Positions 17,986 through 26,732 of a stretch of 64,000 nt of DNA are shown here, one piece after another; position 1 is the first letter of the stretch, and every line of letters starts with the position of its first letter. The DNA comes from Gemmatimonadota bacterium (GTDB lineage: Bacteria > Gemmatimonadota > Gemmatimonadetes > Gemmatimonadales > Gemmatimonadaceae): positions 62,001 to 126,000 of the forward strand of contig BJHH01000001.1 in assembly GCA_014192065.1 (NCBI GenBank). Direction: 5' to 3'. The position numbers and the translations under genes were made by a program. A model generated the notes under the pieces. That model was given only the letters and a program-made list of their open reading frames with translations. It was not told where the DNA came from and searched no databases.

Positions 17986-18495
17986 TCAGCGACCAGTTGG
18001 TGGGGGCTGCAGATGCTCGTCGAGCAAGCGGACAATTGCCGGCTCGATCTGTTCAGGCGTATCCATCGAGCCATGCCGTGCGCGCACGGCGCCTTGGCGA
18101 TCGACGAGGAACTTGGTGAAGTTCCACTTCACCGTCGTCGTACCCAGCAGACCGCGCTGCTCGCGCCGGAGCCAGCTGAACAGGGGGTGCGCCTCGGGTC
18201 CGTTGACCTGGATCTTCGAGAACATCGGAAAGGTCACCGCATAGTGTGTCGAGCAGAAAAGCTGGACCTCTGCGTCGTCGCCCGGCTCCTGCTTCCCGAA
18301 CTGGTCGCAGGGAAAGCCGAGGATGGCGAATCCGCGATCACGATGGCGGAGCCAGAGTGCTTCGAGTCCGGCATACTGCGGCGTGTAGCCACACTGGCTT
18401 GCGACGTTGACCACGAGACAGACCTGGCCGCGGTACGCAGCGAGCGGTTGCTCCTCACCCATGATGGTGCGCGCGCTGAATTCGAACAGGTTCAT
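17986..18495 (-). CDS. Glutathione peroxidase family thiol peroxidase
   Basis: Reduces hydroperoxides, probably with thioredoxin as donor as in most bacterial Cys-type members. Seen from ATG 18495 (169 residues): catalytic C35 in VASQCGYTPQY, FPCDQFGKQEP with the Gln of the active site and a nearby Cys, and WNFTKFLVD with the active-site Trp and Asn. The frame is open 20 codons further to 18555, but the family begins at MNLFEFSAR. It is divergent from the flavin operon; the shared 167-base region holds a tandem repeat. Confidence 0.92.
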   Translation of the reverse strand: MNLFEFSARTIMGEEQPLAAYRGQVCLVVNVASQCGYTPQYAGLEALWLRHRDRGFAILGFPCDQFGKQEPGDDAEVQLFCSTHYAVTFPMFSKIQVNGPEAHPLFSWLRREQRGLLGTTTVKWNFTKFLVDRQGAVRARHGSMDTPEQIEPAIVRLLDEHLQPPPTGR

Positions 18496-18605
18496 GGTCG
18501 GACGATTGCCGTGGTGCCGGTGAAGCGCAACTGTCTGTTGTGGCACGTCAGCCACCGCGGCGCGCGGGTTCCATAACGCCTAGCGAAGGTCAAGCGTATA
18601 TAAAT

Positions 18606-18645
18606 TTGCGCTGGATCGTGTATTGGTTGCGCTGGATCGTGTATT
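18606..18645. promoter_or_regulatory. 19-bp tandem repeat, 21-bp period, operator-like
   Basis: TTGCGCTGGATCGTGTATT occurs at 18606-18624 and again, perfectly, at 18627-18645. The 21-bp period is two helical turns, so two protein dimers would bind the same DNA face. An AT-rich block TATATAAAT lies just upstream at 18597-18605, and GGAG plus the GTG of the flavin operon lie just downstream. I see it as an operator or activator site; the regulator is not encoded here. Confidence 0.45.
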
Positions 18646-18662
18646 CCACGGAGCTTGGCACG

Positions 18663-19571
18663 GTGACTGACGAGTTGAACCCCGAATCTGAGGCCATGCC
18701 GCCTGCCGCCGCCCGGCAGTCGACGGGACGTCGTGCGTCCGGAGTAGCGGCTGCGATGGGGTCCAACCGCCTGATGGCCATCGGCTCGGCTGCAGTGATC
18801 GGTGTGTACGCGGCTGGCTTCTTCAAGACGAAGGCCGCGGCCGACCGGTTTGCTGCGGACTCCAATGTTCGACGTCCGCCACCCCCGAGTGAACCGGTAG
18901 CCAGCGCAGACCGAACTGTGGAGCGCGTGACGCCACCGGCCGCCGATCCGCGCGGTACGCGAGTTGGCGCTGGCGCCACCGCTGCGCTGCCCCCGATGCC
19001 GGCGCTCGTGCGGGCAGACGACCATGTGCCGGGGAAGCCGGTCTCGAGTCCAGCCGCAGCAGAACCCGCCACGATTCAGGCCACCGTCGCGAACGCGCTG
19101 CCGTCGGTAACGGCCGCGGCTGCCGACAGCGTCCCTGTTGTAGCACCGGTCGTTACCTCGCCGGAAGTCGTGACCCCGCCCCCGACGCCACCAGCGCCGC
19201 CACCAGCGCCGCCACCAGCGCCGGTGCCAGCGCCGGTGCAGGTCGCGGCGCCGCAACCGATCGCCACGAAGCGCGCCGAGCCCGATCCGCCGGCGCGAGT
19301 CCAGGCGGCGCCATGGAAGGACGGCACCTACTACGGTTGGGGCAAGTCTCGTCACGGCGACATCCAAGCCGTGGTCGTGATCCATGGTGGCCGCATTACC
19401 AACGCGCTGGTCGCGCAGTGTTTGACGCAGTACTCATGTTCGTGGATCGCGGCGTTGCCCCCGCAGGTCGTCGGCCGCCAGAGTGCCGAAGTAGACTACG
19501 TCTCGGGCGCGACGCAAAGCGTCAACGCGTTCTACTACGCGATCGTCGAAGCACTCAGCCACGCGAAGTGA
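18663..19571 (+). CDS. Membrane-anchored FMN-binding electron carrier on a Pro/Ala stalk
   Basis: Likely extracytosolic one-FMN redox carrier. Seen from GTG 18663 (302 residues): a short cytoplasmic N-terminus, one transmembrane helix at about 37-56 (NRLMAIGSAAVIGVYAAGFF), a long Pro/Ala/Val-rich stalk (about 77-215) and a C-terminal FMN-binding domain with D278-Y-V-S281-G-A-T284. The D-x-x-S-G-A-T pattern is the known site where ApbE links FMN to threonine, so T284 is the probable attachment residue. GGAG at 18650-18653 supports the start; the frame is open further upstream but crosses the tandem repeat. The apbE gene overlaps its stop by 4 bases. Confidence 0.86.
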   Translation: MTDELNPESEAMPPAAARQSTGRRASGVAAAMGSNRLMAIGSAAVIGVYAAGFFKTKAAADRFAADSNVRRPPPPSEPVASADRTVERVTPPAADPRGTRVGAGATAALPPMPALVRADDHVPGKPVSSPAAAEPATIQATVANALPSVTAAAADSVPVVAPVVTSPEVVTPPPTPPAPPPAPPPAPVPAPVQVAAPQPIATKRAEPDPPARVQAAPWKDGTYYGWGKSRHGDIQAVVVIHGGRITNALVAQCLTQYSCSWIAALPPQVVGRQSAEVDYVSGATQSVNAFYYAIVEALSHAK

Positions 19572-20578
19572 GCGACCTGGTGATCCGCACCGTTCCGATG
19601 ATGGGAACGGTTGTCTCCATCCAAATCGTCGGCCACGGTAGCAGCGACGCAGCACGGATCGAGCGAGAGTCCGCTATCGATCGCGCGTTCGAGTGGTTCT
19701 CGCAGGTTGAAGCTTGTTGCACGCGCTTCGACGACCAGAGTGAGCTGCGGCGCCTCTGCGTGCGCGTCGGCGAGCCCGTGGTGGTGAGCGACATGCTTTT
19801 CGCTCCGCTGCATTTCGCGCTGACGGTCGCAGCCGAGTCTGGTGGCGCGTTCGACCCCACGGTTGGCGGCCCGATGGAGGCGCGGGGGTTCGACGCGAAC
19901 CATCGCACCGGCACGCACTCGCGATCGGCCGGCGCGGCCGCGAGCGGCGCGTCGTTTCGTGACGTCGTGGTTGACACGGCCGAGCGCTCGGTCACGATCC
20001 TGCGCCCGCTCACGTTGGACCTTGGCGCGGTCGCCAAGGGACTCGCCATGGACCTCGCCGCCCGCGAACTGCAGCCATTCGGAAACTTTGCGATTGATGC
20101 CGGCGGCGACCTCTACCTCGGCGGCACCAACGCGGCGGCGGAGGCGTGGACTGCCGGTATTCGGCATCCGCGCGAGGAGCGAGCCGTGATCGAGACGATT
20201 CGCCTGTCGAACCTCGCCGTCTGTACCTCCGGTGACTACGAGCGGGCAGGAGTCGCCACCGACAGCGGCCACCACATTCTCGATCCGCGAGCCAATGTCG
20301 TGTCGGGCGCAGAGATATCGTCCGTAATAGGCGCTAGCGGACAGGCTGTGCCATCCGCAACGGCCGTCGCCAGCGCGACGGTCATTGCACCGAGCGCGAT
20401 GGTCGCCGATGCGCTCGCCACCGCTGCGTTTGTGCTCGGCCCCGTCGCTGGGCTCACCTTCCTTGAGCAGAACGGTGTGCGCGGCGTGATGTTCACGTCC
20501 AGGCTTCAACGGTGGGCGACGAAAGACTTCAACATGGAACACCCCGAACTAGATGACGCCGCTGTCCGCCGCACTTAA
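19568..20578 (+). CDS. apbE: FAD:protein FMN transferase
   Basis: Transfers FMN from FAD to threonine of target proteins outside the cytoplasm. Seen: MMGTVVSIQI at the start, a Cys-containing VEACCTRFDDQSELRRL, LTLDLGAVAKGLAMD and FAIDAGGDLYLGG, which form the FAD/Mg site of the family. The start is taken as GTG 19568 because GTGA overlaps the upstream stop; GTG 19580 is an alternative. No clear export signal or lipobox is visible, which is odd for ApbE, though short N-terminal signals may be missed. The obvious substrate is the SGAT protein encoded immediately before it. Confidence 0.92.
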   Translation: MSDLVIRTVPMMGTVVSIQIVGHGSSDAARIERESAIDRAFEWFSQVEACCTRFDDQSELRRLCVRVGEPVVVSDMLFAPLHFALTVAAESGGAFDPTVGGPMEARGFDANHRTGTHSRSAGAAASGASFRDVVVDTAERSVTILRPLTLDLGAVAKGLAMDLAARELQPFGNFAIDAGGDLYLGGTNAAAEAWTAGIRHPREERAVIETIRLSNLAVCTSGDYERAGVATDSGHHILDPRANVVSGAEISSVIGASGQAVPSATAVASATVIAPSAMVADALATAAFVLGPVAGLTFLEQNGVRGVMFTSRLQRWATKDFNMEHPELDDAAVRRT

Positions 20579-21392
20579 ACGTTGTTTTCGCACCCCGAAG
20601 GGCATGCTGATCGCCCTGCTGGTGGTCGTCACCGCGTTCGCGGTGGTGAACGAAGGGCTGCGGCTTGTCGCACCCGGTCTCGCTGCAGGCGTACTCGCCG
20701 CGATGCTCGTCGATGCACCTCTCCTGCGATGGCGCGAGGGCGCATGGTGTGTTCCCGACGGCGCGCTGCTGACCGGCCTCATCGTGGCGATGGTGTTGAG
20801 TCCGTACGGGGCGTGGTGGATTGCGGCGGTGACGTCGGCGACTGCGATCGTCAGCAAGTACCTGCTACGCATGGGCAAGGCGAATGTGTTCAATCCGGCC
20901 GCACTCGCGCTCGTGATCACCTTCTATCTGTTCGATGCCGGCCACAGTTGGTGGGGCGCGCTCGCCGACGCGCCGACGTGGCAGCTCGTCGTGCTCGGTG
21001 CGACAGGCATCTTCATCACCGACCGGGTGAAGAAGACTCCGCTCGTGCTCTCGTTCCTCGGCAGCTACTACCTCCTCGTCACTTCGATGGCGTTCCTCGG
21101 TGAGCCGGATGGAGTTGCCGCACTGTATCGTGCGCCGGACCTCAACGCGGCGTTGTATTTCGCGTTCTTCATGGTCACCGATCCGCCCACATCGCCGCCC
21201 AGGTACCGCGACCAGTTGATCAATGGAGTGATCGTGGCCGTCGTCGCGGTCGCGACGTTCGAGTTCATTGGCGCGGCCTATTTCCTGCTGGCGGGATTGC
21301 TGGCGGCGAATGTGTGGGAAGCGTTCCGCCGGTGGCGGGTACGTCGCCCGGCGGGGAGTTCGGCGCGCGCGCGCGAGGAAGCGGCCTCGTAG
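20553..21392 (+). CDS. RnfD/NqrB-like membrane protein without SGAT site
   Basis: A 279-residue inner-membrane protein of the RnfD/NqrB family, with about eight or nine hydrophobic helices. Seen: KANVFNPAALALVITFYLF and FFMVTDPPTSPPRYRD, both typical of the family. The S/T-G-A-T flavinylation motif of true RnfD/NqrB is absent, so this protein is probably not itself flavinylated. It overlaps the apbE stop by 26 bases. With no other rnf or nqr gene nearby it may move electrons across the membrane to the FMN carrier (inference). Confidence 0.87.
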   Translation: MTPLSAALKRCFRTPKGMLIALLVVVTAFAVVNEGLRLVAPGLAAGVLAAMLVDAPLLRWREGAWCVPDGALLTGLIVAMVLSPYGAWWIAAVTSATAIVSKYLLRMGKANVFNPAALALVITFYLFDAGHSWWGALADAPTWQLVVLGATGIFITDRVKKTPLVLSFLGSYYLLVTSMAFLGEPDGVAALYRAPDLNAALYFAFFMVTDPPTSPPRYRDQLINGVIVAVVAVATFEFIGAAYFLLAGLLAANVWEAFRRWRVRRPAGSSARAREEAAS

Positions 21393-21572: not shown

Positions 21573-24098
21573 CTATCTCCGCGGCGGTTCCAGTGTCGCT
21601 GTTACGCGATCCACAACGTCCGCCCAGTGCGCCTTGGCCACCGCGTTCGTCGCGGCGGCGCCCGACGTGCGCGCCAACGCCTGCACGGCGCGCAGTTGCG
21701 CCCGCGCGAGCGCTGGGAGATCGCTGCGTGGTACGTTCGGCGCCGCCGTGAATGGAGCTGGTGTCTGCGGCGCCCCGCCGCGTCCACCCGCACCAGCGAC
21801 AGCGCCCGCCGGAGCCGGTGGATTCACGATTTGCCCAAGCCGTTCGAGATACGCACGCTGTAGCTGACGCCGATGCGCGTCGAGCGCGCCGGCAAACACC
21901 ACCGCGCGCACGTCTCCCATGTATTCCGCGAGCGGGTAGGCGTTCGCGAGGTCGAACGATTCACTTTCCGCGAGTCGCCCGAGCCGCGCATTGCTCAGGA
22001 GGTTGGTGAGCACGCCACCCGCACGCGCCGCAACGCTCTGCGTCGGTGCGCCGAGTTTCGACAAGACATCCGCCGGCGAAAGCCAAGCAGGAGTCGTGAA
22101 GACATTTTCGCTGAGAAATGCGAGCGCGGCCTTCTGCTTCGCCTTCGCCACCACCTGATACACCGGGCCGCCCTGGTCGGCCGTCTTAAAGTCGACGTAG
22201 ACGCCAGAGACCACGTTGACGACGTGCCCCATGTACTGTGCCCACTGGCCAAGTGCCTCGTTGTAGATCTCCTCGAGGTCGGAGTAATCCTCGCCAGGCT
22301 TCGTCGTCCACGCGACCATCTGCGAAAACACCTTTTTCATGTTGGCGACGGCGTAGCCCGATGACTTCACCGGATCGTCGCCCATGTCCTCGGTCTGATT
22401 GCGCGGGTCGGTGCCGGTGTACTGCCCAGGGCCGTAGCGATACGCGAACAGTCCCTTCTCGTCGGTCACCCACGTATTGAGCGTGGGGCGCTCAGCCTCT
22501 GGCGTGCGCGCCTGGAGCAGCGCGCGGTAGCCCCAGTTGATTGCAAAATCGTCGAACGGTCCCGTTCGGCGGATGAAGTCTTTCGGCGCGAGACCGTCGC
22601 CTGGCTGCGCAACGTAGTTCTGGCGCGCGTAGTCCATGATCGTGAGCGAGACGCCGTACGTGCTCGCGAATGCCTTCGAGCGCAGGCTGTCAGTCGGGAT
22701 TGAGTTCGACGCGATCATGTTGTGCGGCAGGCCAAGCGCGTGGCCGATTTCGTGCGTGATCACCATGTGCATCGTTTGGCCCATCAACTCTTCGGTGAGC
22801 GTCATCGAGCGGGCGGCGGGATTGGCGGCGCCTGTCTCGATCAAGAGGCGGTTGCGGTACGACCGCATGTGATTGTGGTACCAAGTGATCTCGCTATTGA
22901 GGATCTCGCCGGTGCGCGGGTCGTGCGTATTCGGGCCGACCGCGTTGCGCACGGTGCTCGCCGCCCAGCGCACGACGGAGTAGCGCGCATCGTCCATGTC
23001 CCAGTTGGGATCGTTCGTTGGAGCGTAGCGTGCCTGCACGGCGTTCTTGAATCCAGCCTTCTCGAATACCTTGGCCCATTCCTCCACGCCCCTCTTCACG
23101 TACGGCGCCCACTTGGCCGGTGTGGCGGGGTCGAGGTAGTAGACGATGGGCTTCACCGGCTCGACGAGTTCGCCGCGCGCATACGCAGCTGGATCCTTGG
23201 GCTCCATGCGCCAGCGCACGATGAACTTCTGCGTGGCCGCCTTCTGTTCGTCGAGGCCGTAGTTCACCCGCTCAATGCCGAAGAAGCCCACTCGGTCATC
23301 GGCGTAGCGCGGGCGCATCGGCTCCTTAGGGAGGAGGAGCAGCGACTGCCGCATTTCGAGGGAGATCGTGCCCGCGCTGCGGTCGTTGCCTGGCGGTTCG
23401 GCGGCGTCGAAGGTCTGCACGTGGCGCACTTCGACATTGACGGGGAAAGCACGCACGCTGCTCACCCAGCTGCGCGCGGGGTCGAAGCGGCGCACGGCAT
23501 AGGTACGGCGTTCGGCGGCGGACAGTCCGGAAATACCTGGCGTGTCACCGGCGAAAAAATCGGTGACGTCGATGACATACGTCGCGCTGTCGCTTCCGTA
23601 TGCCTGAACGGGGAACGAGGCCAGCACGGGCATAAAGTTGTTCTGCGCAACGGATTGGGCGATGGGCAACGAATCGTCGGCCACCGCGCCATAGCTCAGG
23701 CTGCGGAGCACGATGCGGTCGCCGATCCGTTCGAATCGTACCACCCGTTCCTCGCGCGAGCTGCCAGCCGACGTGAACCCGGCCGATCCCTCAGGCACAC
23801 CCGAAATGCGGCTCACCATCAGGAACTCTCGCTTGCTCGCCGAGTCGGGGACTTCGAAGAACCAGCGGTCTCCCACATGGTGTGCGGTGATCATCCCGCG
23901 CTCGGTCTTCGCGCGGTCCGTGATCACCTGCGCGTACGGGCGCGGGCCTGCCTGGGCGTTGCCCCGGCCAGCGCCCTGCGGCGCACTGGCGGCTGGGGTT
24001 TGCGCCGGTTGCGGCGCCGGCGGAGCAGTCGGGGGTGGATTCTGTGCGCCGAGTGATACGGCAGTGGCGGCGAGGGCGATGAGGGCGTGCGTGCGCAT
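21573..24098 (-). CDS. Exported zinc metalloprotease (DUF5117/DUF4953 type)
   Basis: An 841-residue exported endopeptidase-like protein. Seen: signal peptide about 1-18; a Pro/Ala/Gln linker; a long N-terminal region of the DUF5117 kind; and the metzincin-like zinc motif H449-E450-x-x-H453-x-x-G456-x-x-H459 (HEIGHALGLPH) in the C-terminal half. A Gly/Arg insert is encoded near 21770-21825. ATG 24098 opens directly into the signal. The gene sits alone between the two 122-bp repeats, which makes it a candidate for movement or duplication as a unit, but its base composition looks like that of its neighbours. Confidence 0.9.
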   Translation of the reverse strand: MRTHALIALAATAVSLGAQNPPPTAPPAPQPAQTPAASAPQGAGRGNAQAGPRPYAQVITDRAKTERGMITAHHVGDRWFFEVPDSASKREFLMVSRISGVPEGSAGFTSAGSSREERVVRFERIGDRIVLRSLSYGAVADDSLPIAQSVAQNNFMPVLASFPVQAYGSDSATYVIDVTDFFAGDTPGISGLSAAERRTYAVRRFDPARSWVSSVRAFPVNVEVRHVQTFDAAEPPGNDRSAGTISLEMRQSLLLLPKEPMRPRYADDRVGFFGIERVNYGLDEQKAATQKFIVRWRMEPKDPAAYARGELVEPVKPIVYYLDPATPAKWAPYVKRGVEEWAKVFEKAGFKNAVQARYAPTNDPNWDMDDARYSVVRWAASTVRNAVGPNTHDPRTGEILNSEITWYHNHMRSYRNRLLIETGAANPAARSMTLTEELMGQTMHMVITHEIGHALGLPHNMIASNSIPTDSLRSKAFASTYGVSLTIMDYARQNYVAQPGDGLAPKDFIRRTGPFDDFAINWGYRALLQARTPEAERPTLNTWVTDEKGLFAYRYGPGQYTGTDPRNQTEDMGDDPVKSSGYAVANMKKVFSQMVAWTTKPGEDYSDLEEIYNEALGQWAQYMGHVVNVVSGVYVDFKTADQGGPVYQVVAKAKQKAALAFLSENVFTTPAWLSPADVLSKLGAPTQSVAARAGGVLTNLLSNARLGRLAESESFDLANAYPLAEYMGDVRAVVFAGALDAHRRQLQRAYLERLGQIVNPPAPAGAVAGAGGRGGAPQTPAPFTAAPNVPRSDLPALARAQLRAVQALARTSGAAATNAVAKAHWADVVDRVTATLEPPRR

Positions 24099-24509: not shown

Positions 24510-26732
24510 CTAGTTCCCCGGCTTGTATGTCTTCTCGGTGTGCCCCTTGAGCTGGCTCGGGTAGTAGTAGACCTCACGCAGGTCGCCCGTTGAGTACCGC
24601 GCGCCCTGGTCGTTGAAGTGTTTCGACCCCACGACACTGTTCAGGCCACCGGCCGTTACTGCGCGCGCGCGGACACTGTCCTTCCCGAACTCGACCACGG
24701 CCACGAAGCTATTGCCGCTCGACCCGTACCACTTCTTGGTGTTCGGGTAAGCGCGCGCTGCGAACGATGCGAGGGTGCCCGTCTGTCCTGCCGACGGGAA
24801 GCCGACTGGCGTGCTCGGCGCGGTGTCATCGAATTCCGACTCGATCTTGGCATTCAGGCGCTGGAAGCGGTTGATATCGCCCCATGGCGTGTTGCACTTG
24901 CCGAAATCGGCCGTGAGTTTCGCGCAGGCCGCGTCGAGCGCCTGCAGGAGTTGGTCGCCGGTCGGCGCAGCCGGTGCCGCACCGCCGCCACGACGTCCTC
25001 CGCGTCCACTGCCGATACGGCCGGCCTCAGTCGTGTAGAAGATCGCGAGCGATGTCGGCACCGAGGTCACGCTCCACCGCAGGTCCCACTTCCGCAGCAG
25101 GTCAATCTGTTCGGCGAGTTTTGCCTTGAGTGGATGCGACGCCGGCGCATCGTCCCACGCCTTCAAAAGTGCGGGGACCGATTTGTCGAATCCCGGCATG
25201 TAGGAGTCGTAGGCCGCGTCGCGTAGCCCTTGGATCGAAAAGTCTTTTTTGTTCTGCAGGACGATCACTGCGTGCCGCCCGCGCGCCGACTCGCTGCCGT
25301 TGTCGACCCACGCCGGGAAGTTCGCCTGCTTCGGACTGTCTGGGCCCGCCGCCGCCCACGGCCAGTCGTTGGCGTTGTAGACCCAGCCGCTGTTGGGATT
25401 GATGGCGTTGGGCGCCTTGTCGAACGGGAGTAGTGCGCCCCATTCCGTGGCCGGGTCGCTGCCGTCCACCGGCTGCCGCCAATCGAACTTCGTGTCGCGC
25501 TGCGGCAGGAAGTTTGCGTGGAGGTACGCGACGTTGCCTTCGGCGTCCGCGAAGAGCGTGTTGTTCGACGAGTTCGTGTTGAGCGCCATCGTCTTGTTGT
25601 ACTCAGCGAGGTTCTTCGCCTTCGTGCGCAGGTAGCTCTGCGTCAGCGCCTTGAGCGGCTCCTGCATGATGCGGGCCGCGACCCACCGACCACCTTGTGA
25701 ACGCACGATCGGGCCGAAGTGCGTGTAGTAGACCGTAAACGCCTTCTTCGCCATGCCAGCGTCGGTCTTGTACGGCACGGTGATCTGCTTGGCGATGAGC
25801 GGCCGTTCGTTGTTGCCAAACTTGTAGAAATATTTGCCGCCCTTCTCGGTCACGGTCTCGAGAAACTCATCCGACCGGTCTGCGGCGCTGGTGGTGTGCA
25901 TCCAGCCCGCGGTGCGGTTGAAACCCTGGTAGATGAAGAACTGACCCCAAGTGGCCGCGCCGTAGGCGTCGAGGCCTTCGTCGCTCGTCATCTGGAGCTC
26001 TTCCCGGAAGAAGAACGAGGTGTGCGGGTTGATCAACAGCAGCGCCCGGCCATTCTTCGTGTTCTTCGGTGACACGGCCATGCCGTTGGAACCGCCCGGC
26101 TCCTTTTCGATCGCGTCCTCGGTGGCCTTCGCGTCGTCCGCTTCGCGCGCGGCGCGATCGAACTGCGTGCCCGGGCCCATACTGGCGAGCTTCACCGGGC
26201 CGTTTCCATAGAACGCCTGCAGCTGTCCGACGTTGACCACGCCAATGTCGTTGCCGATGCTCCCTTCGCTGAACGTGAGCGCCATCCACGGTTCGAACTT
26301 CATGATCACTCGCGGCTTCACTTCGGGGTGTTTCGAGAGGTAAAAGTTGAGTCCGTCGGCCCACGCGACCATCAGCGTTTGCAGCCACGCCGGACTCTGT
26401 CCGTAGATCTTCTTCATGGAATCGGGGTCGATGAAGAGCTTCATCTGCAGGTCGCGGTAGATGGCGCTCTCGCCTTCGGTTTCGGCGGTGCGGCCTTGCG
26501 ACGTGATGAAGTTCGCTTCGACGCGGTTGAAGTCGTCTTCGGACTGCGCATACATCGCGCCGAACACCACGTCGGCGTCGGTCTTCCCGCGCACGTGCGG
26601 GATGCCCCAGTCGTCGCGCGTGATCGTCACATTTTGGGCCTGGGCCTGCCAGCGCACGAGTTCGGCTGTGGTTGGAACGCCCGGCGTGTGGAAGGTGAAG
26701 GCCGCGGCGAGGAGGAGTCCGAGCTTCTTCAT
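24510..26732 (-). CDS. Exported penicillin acylase-family Ntn hydrolase
   Basis: A 740-residue S45-type acylase precursor that would cut itself into alpha and beta chains and hydrolyse amides such as N-acyl side chains. Seen from ATG 26732: signal peptide about 1-22; VTITRDDWGIPHVRGKTDADV; the autoprocessing site EPGG/S215NGMAVSPKNT, where S215 becomes the beta-chain N-terminal nucleophile; LLINPHTSFFF and the later asparagine-rich core. A Gly/Arg tract (near 24970-25015) interrupts the beta chain. The frame is open 79 codons further upstream but without family sequence. Substrate unknown; quorum-signal or peptide-type amides are possible. DUF885 lies 109 bases upstream. Confidence 0.9.
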   Translation of the reverse strand: MKKLGLLLAAAFTFHTPGVPTTAELVRWQAQAQNVTITRDDWGIPHVRGKTDADVVFGAMYAQSEDDFNRVEANFITSQGRTAETEGESAIYRDLQMKLFIDPDSMKKIYGQSPAWLQTLMVAWADGLNFYLSKHPEVKPRVIMKFEPWMALTFSEGSIGNDIGVVNVGQLQAFYGNGPVKLASMGPGTQFDRAAREADDAKATEDAIEKEPGGSNGMAVSPKNTKNGRALLLINPHTSFFFREELQMTSDEGLDAYGAATWGQFFIYQGFNRTAGWMHTTSAADRSDEFLETVTEKGGKYFYKFGNNERPLIAKQITVPYKTDAGMAKKAFTVYYTHFGPIVRSQGGRWVAARIMQEPLKALTQSYLRTKAKNLAEYNKTMALNTNSSNNTLFADAEGNVAYLHANFLPQRDTKFDWRQPVDGSDPATEWGALLPFDKAPNAINPNSGWVYNANDWPWAAAGPDSPKQANFPAWVDNGSESARGRHAVIVLQNKKDFSIQGLRDAAYDSYMPGFDKSVPALLKAWDDAPASHPLKAKLAEQIDLLRKWDLRWSVTSVPTSLAIFYTTEAGRIGSGRGGRRGGGAAPAAPTGDQLLQALDAACAKLTADFGKCNTPWGDINRFQRLNAKIESEFDDTAPSTPVGFPSAGQTGTLASFAARAYPNTKKWYGSSGNSFVAVVEFGKDSVRARAVTAGGLNSVVGSKHFNDQGARYSTGDLREVYYYPSQLKGHTEKTYKPGN

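Follow-up and report, generated by a model that had tools for sequence, protein, structure and literature searches.

A recurring carrier-apbE-rnfD-like gene trio from Gemmatimonadota as a candidate two-flavin transmembrane relay

The window analysed here, a stretch of 64,000 nucleotides from a Gemmatimonadota genome, contains three co-directional plus-strand genes, each overlapping the next, that encode an FMN carrier, an ApbE flavin transferase and an NqrB/RnfD-like membrane protein (hereafter the trio). The overlaps measure 4 bp between carrier and apbE and 26 bp between apbE and the rnfD-like gene. The features of the locus are:

17986-18555, minus strand: divergent gene of the GSHPx family (Pfam E 2e-41), with no evident export signal
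18663..19571, plus strand: FMN carrier gene, with a GTG start, an N-terminal transmembrane helix, a stalk and a C-terminal FMN_bind domain (Pfam FMN_bind, E 8.6e-5, above the gathering score)
18771..18824, plus strand: transmembrane helix of the carrier (LMAIGSAAVIGVYAAGFF), from an alignment of 18 carriers and hydropathy, with invariant Y49, A51 and G52, then T56 just after the helix
18825..19319, plus strand: stalk of ~165 residues, 47% Pro+Ala and free of Cys (stalk measurement; Cys counts)
19320..19568, plus strand: FMN_bind domain (AlphaFold2 pLDDT 91; nearest solved folds 8P2A and 8P2B)
19419..19439, plus strand: C253-L-T-Q-Y-S-C259, a cysteine pair around the predicted flavin-contact segment (alignment of 69 carriers)
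19512..19514, plus strand: T284, the predicted FMN attachment residue in VSGAT (T in 68/69 carriers, S in 1/69)
19568..20578, plus strand: ApbE flavin transferase, without signal peptide or lipobox (Pfam E 6e-53; N-terminal survey and control)
20553..21392, plus strand: NqrB/RnfD-like membrane protein of 279 aa (NQR2_RnfD_RnfE, E 1e-14), with no NAD domain and no SGAT loop, riboflavin-site residues kept

A sequence-only reading of this DNA had proposed three overlapping genes, and both the coordinates and matches above gathering scores to the Pfam families FMN_bind, ApbE and NQR2_RnfD_RnfE bear it out. Its start at 18597 is not a start codon in the carrier frame, where we found TTG at 18606, GTG at 18663 and, as an alternative start, ATG at 18696. 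With the GTG start its numbering of T284 within the SGAT motif is right (ACG at 19512-19514), while its stalk of 140 residues grows to ~165 on measurement and its divergent 'thiol peroxidase' becomes a member of the glutathione peroxidase (GSHPx) family. We discarded this peroxidase as a partner of the system, as it recurred in the loci checked only beside the trio of one close relative (L039/L075, same contig). Two perfect 19-bp direct repeats (TTGCGCTGGATCGTGTATT) lie 21 bp apart at 18606-18645, directly before the carrier start,; such repeats were not found in L075, the nearest relative. Beyond the rnfD-like gene lie convergent genes for a DUF4953/DUF5117 Met-zincin-like metallopeptidase (21573-24098) and a penicillin-amidase family protein (24510-26732); relatives of both accompany the trio at just a few of the Gemmatimonadota loci.

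The sequence-only reading had also noted that no rnf or nqr genes lie nearby, and this extends to the whole genome. At 97.75% completeness it encodes one PF03116 protein, one ApbE and one FMN_bind protein, with no second PF03116 protein and no PF02508 protein (RnfA/E, NqrD/E), so that an Nqr or Rnf complex acting in trans is absent as far as these families show. With one of each in this genome, the ApbE has a single recognisable FMN_bind substrate. A survey of relatives showed this gene order to be shared by dozens of genomes spread over several phyla (besides Gemmatimonadota, also Acidobacteriota, Opitutae, Chloroflexota and a Bacillus), and the trio is therefore not a chance arrangement. The order carrier, apbE, rnfD-like was intact in 71/89 loci, the exceptions including some at contig ends and some without an adjacent apbE. 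The short rnfD-like gene was present in 40/395 Gemmatimonadota genomes and, when named genomes were screened, also turned up in Bryobacterales and other Acidobacteriota, Opitutae, Dehalococcoidia, Nevskiaceae and a Bacillus; only 4/297 sampled Acidobacteriota genomes carried it, indicating a patchy distribution. Nor is it confined to full rnf/nqr clusters, the finding that would have told against the sequence-only reading: 34 of the 40 Gemmatimonadota genomes, and 13 of 15 trio genomes mostly from other phyla, lack full-length NqrB/RnfD. Three loci with trio genes (L102, L104 and L151) come from metagenome bins named Candidatus Kuenenia, Bordetella parapertussis and Bifidobacterium breve; these look like mislabelled records, and in our tree L102 and L104 fall among sequences from other phyla.

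Neighbour clustering revealed no constant fourth partner. When 117 flanking proteins were scanned with Pfam, no family occurred in more than four, and no electron donor or acceptor gene recurred among them. Thioredoxin-like neighbours in three loci are a hint at most.

The membrane protein was modelled with AlphaFold2 from 74 homologues (mean pLDDT 91) and was assigned the RnfD/NqrB fold by Foldseek with probability 1.00. Structural alignment with VIA gave Z 24.6 against RnfD over 257 residues (rmsd 5.0), with RnfD/NqrB structures spanning Z 24.6 to 21 and the next families, ammonium and urea transporters, at Z 12 and below. The profile alignment skips residues 142-215 of A. vinelandii RnfD, taken to be the FMN-bearing periplasmic loop, leaving ~6 residues in their place; by alignment, the loop comprises 23 residues in the short form vs 74-92 in full-length NqrB/RnfD. 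None of the 74 homologues carries an [ST]GA[ST] motif. The sequence-only reading that the membrane protein lacks the SGAT site thus stands, refined in that the entire FMN-bearing loop is gone, and W133, W134 and G135, all invariant, occupy the position where it was. In V. cholerae NqrB, T162, N200, N203 and D346 hydrogen-bond riboflavin (PMC9325719), and the D346A substitution impairs the enzyme (PMC10643135). By motif and alignment these correspond to T74, N111, N114 and D210 of the trio protein, conserved in 95-100% of the 74 homologues, with S or H in place of T74 and N111 in some Chloroflexota of the wider tree set. The side chains by which the NqrB/RnfD family binds riboflavin are thus matched and flavin binding is predicted: with the riboflavin residues kept and the FMN loop lost, one non-covalent riboflavin is expected, and a covalent FMN of the NqrB/RnfD type is not. 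A link to enediyne UnbU-type RnfD proteins was considered and dropped, no literature on it having been found.

Beyond PF03116 the membrane protein matches no Pfam family, and the NAD-binding PF00175 domain is absent. In the nearest published system, termed Nqr/Rnf-like, an NAD domain is fused to the membrane protein (Méheust et al. 2021, PMC8238504; Huang et al. 2024, PMC11334425). Our search of Chloroflexota separated a short group at 248-393 bits from weaker matches scoring no more than ~93 bits, many of which were ~500-600 aa long. Of nine longer proteins fetched, six adjoin a carrier; in five cases the order is carrier-apbE-membrane protein. Two examples that were scanned contain PF00175, and we identify this type with the published Nqr/Rnf-like system. 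In a 66-sequence tree, one group each was formed by the short forms (SH-aLRT 93), the NAD-fused proteins (99) and full-length NqrB/RnfD (99), identifying the trio protein as an NAD-domain-free relative with its own clade. The gene order, WW motif and loop loss common to the trio and the NAD-fused form could mean that the trio is an NAD(P)H-driven Nqr/Rnf-like system in which the NAD-binding reductase has become a free-standing cytosolic protein encoded elsewhere. We consider this doubtful, given that the genes beside the trio include no recurring reductase of this kind and that the short form, besides its separate clade, has an invariant N-terminal lysine (PKG) of its own and further residues not found in the NAD-fused form. 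That the trio is a functionless relic of a lost Nqr/Rnf complex would agree with a genome lacking every other Nqr/Rnf membrane subunit tested, but is very improbable indeed: one clade apart from full-length NqrB/RnfD, with residues strongly conserved across phyla and a trio intact over large distances, already contradicts it. Two further protein types emerged from these searches, both with no carrier or ApbE nearby: a PF03116-like Gemmatimonadota family of ~520-545 aa (L065, L066 and L067, from genomes G389, G162 and G287), whose Cys-rich C-terminal part resembles Sel1-like repeats and which falls in a clade distinct from the trio protein, and a third NqrB/RnfD-like type in Chloroflexota, of ~557 aa (L216, L220 and L223), of which L216 has a TDPKTVP motif and no Pfam match.

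The carrier domain matches domain 2 of SaFMN3 and domain 1 of CbFMN4 (8P2A, 8P2B). It combines an FMN_bind fold and a D-x-x-[ST]GA[ST] motif with an encoded ApbE, the combination by which ApbE-flavinylated proteins are recognised, and covalent FMN on T284 is predicted from the sequence. Alignment with the contacts described for SaFMN3/CbFMN4-type structures (PMC10339131) equates H23 (domain numbering) with the stacking Tyr14, T47 with the Thr bonding flavin N5 and Y49 with the residue on the other flavin face. C45 and C51, which are C253 and C259 of the protein, flank the T47-Y49 stretch of this contact segment. C253 is present in 68/69 carriers and C259 in 63/69; of the six lacking C259, four, all Opitutae, show a cysteine at the xRHGD position. 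Counted after the transmembrane helix in 72 carriers, cysteines number two in 61, three in six, none in four and one in one. Paired cysteines with none in the stalk fit a disulfide, and hence an extracytosolic domain. The pair is absent from Bacillus and part of the Chloroflexota carriers and is thus not required for the basic relay.

Median stalk length was 136 residues for two-membrane lineages, compared with 71 for the short trios of Chloroflexota (Mann-Whitney P 9e-6, uncorrected for relatedness), ~54 for NAD-fused Chloroflexota and 30 for Bacillus, with the two-membrane median shortened by some transmembrane calls that landed within Ala/Val-rich stalks. This pattern, a correlation only, fits a stalk that spans the periplasm. 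Charges around the helix are clearly N-in/C-out in Chloroflexota carriers, and leave the orientation ambiguous in Gemmatimonadota and Acidobacteriota, where K/R residues after the helix outnumber those before it (5.0 vs 2.5 and 4.6 vs 2.8, respectively). Export of the carrier by the Tat route was rejected, with a twin-arginine motif in just 2/64 carriers.

Across ~84 trios the ApbE domain begins a median of 4 residues past the earliest possible start, and no signal peptide was found at any of these loci, including those with longer extensions of up to 44 residues; neither the signal peptide nor the lipobox that marks exported ApbEs of extracytosolic flavinylation systems is present. In a same-genome control, Nqr-linked ApbEs have a clear twin-arginine signal (SRREFLT followed by a hydrophobic stretch), whereas the trio ApbEs do not. 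ApbEs of short-type trios contain ~4 Cys on average, in odd and even counts, vs 0-2 in exported ApbEs. Together, the missing signals, the Tat control and the cysteine counts predict a cytoplasmic ApbE, and the usual picture of ApbE acting on the carrier outside is left unsupported: the two proteins appear to sit on opposite sides of the membrane. Twin-arginine signals were seen in Gemmatimonadota ApbE genes (L225-L233) whose genomes also contain full-length nqrB/rnfD-type genes, in several cases at a distance of only ~3 kb; these ApbEs have no lipobox, unlike most characterised ApbEs as reported.

The mismatch would disappear if the FMN domain were cytoplasmic (N-out/C-in), placing ApbE and carrier in one compartment and the relay on the inner face, as the signal-less, Cys-containing ApbE and the K/R excess after the helix in Gemmatimonadota and Acidobacteriota carriers would allow. 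We judge this improbable in view of the clear N-in/C-out charges of Chloroflexota carriers, the near-strict pairing of cysteines with none in the stalk, the conserved WWG in a loop that is periplasmic in NqrB/RnfD and the longer stalks of two-membrane lineages. Flavinylation before export is, in our view, more likely than a cytoplasmic carrier domain, though no precedent for a cytoplasmic ApbE with an outside substrate was found in the literature. In its fullest form, the proposal that a cytoplasmic ApbE flavinylates the carrier before it crosses the membrane, and that the ready-made flavoprotein is exported to form the outer half of a quinol-driven two-flavin relay with a cysteine pair at its flavin, is tentative, and we put it somewhat short of an even chance.

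Computation supplied the genes and their order, the folds, the sites that are kept or lost, the phylogenetic clade and the absence of Nqr/Rnf. On this basis we read the operon, with modest confidence and on balance in its favour, as a two-flavin transmembrane relay, a reading in which flavin occupancy, compartment, direction, donor and acceptor are inferred. The narrower claim of a transmembrane flavin relay is well supported by the fold, the conserved riboflavin pocket and the recurring trio. The 'small transmembrane wire' of the sequence-only reading survives on the same three grounds, although its design is not new in outline, Nqr/Rnf-like systems having been published. In the relay as we envisage it, the covalent FMN on T284 of the carrier would replace the lost loop FMN of NqrB/RnfD on the outer side, at the invariant WWG. 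With its long flexible tether the carrier could bind to the membrane protein first and afterwards contact a more distant partner, which in two-membrane bacteria may lie as far out as the outer membrane. ApbE would be dedicated to this carrier, there being just one of each in the genome, and, as it has no export signal, would most likely modify it before export. Electrons would probably pass between a quinone/quinol pool (or a soluble reductant) on the cytosolic side and an extracytosolic partner; the direction we favour, from quinol to an outside acceptor, is a guess. Counting against this reading, no quinone site could be made out. The reverse is conceivable, with an extracytosolic donor feeding carrier FMN, then riboflavin, then quinone, as in the second half of the Na+-NQR pathway, where electrons pass from FMN(NqrC) to FMN(NqrB), riboflavin and ubiquinone (PMC9325719). 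The trio keeps just that NqrC-to-quinone half; yet no donor gene is linked to it, and the cytosolic NAD(P)H module of the sister NAD-fused system suggests outward flow (PMC8238504), leaving the reverse course rather unlikely. If the relay proves true, it would be the smallest NQR/RNF electron path and, with just two flavins on two proteins and neither iron-sulphur clusters nor an NAD domain, would offer a simple model for flavin electron transfer across a membrane.

Compared with known systems, the trio most closely resembles the Nqr/Rnf-like system, in which an FMN_bind carrier and an NqrB/RnfD-like protein are likewise encoded with or near ApbE, the gene order is the same in Chloroflexota examples, and the flavinylation site of the membrane protein is lost, as already reported (PMC8238504, PMC11334425), with a WW motif in the shortened loop. 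In contrast to that system, the trio lacks its defining C-terminal PF00175 domain, has a longer stalk, a carrier cysteine pair and its own clade, and is found mainly in Gemmatimonadota, Bryobacterales, Opitutae and Dehalococcoidia. With the NqrB-NqrC and RnfD-RnfG pairs of Na+-NQR and RNF it shares the RnfD/NqrB fold, the riboflavin-site residues and the ApbE-type SGAT threonine of the carrier, but its genome has neither PF02508 (NqrD/E, RnfA/E) nor a second PF03116 protein, its membrane protein lacks the FMN loop with the covalent SGAT threonine, and the closest FMN_bind structures to its carrier are the SaFMN3/CbFMN4 domains (8P2A, 8P2B). These proteins (PMC10339131) offer the closest solved fold and are of the same small single-domain type, but they string together three or four domains, whereas the trio carrier has one, on a long stalk and with a cysteine pair at the flavin. 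The ApbE lacks a signal peptide, as does the cytosolic ApbE of Klebsiella pneumoniae (reviewed in PMC12052999), whose substrate is a soluble cytoplasmic fumarate reductase and not a membrane-anchored, extracytosolic-looking carrier. The relay design is thus known in outline; new are the NAD-domain-free clade, the signal-less ApbE, the carrier cysteine pair and the roughly twofold longer stalks of two-membrane lineages. The surprise is the compartment mismatch between ApbE and its substrate rather than the operon itself, and it poses a concrete question: can flavinylation precede export?
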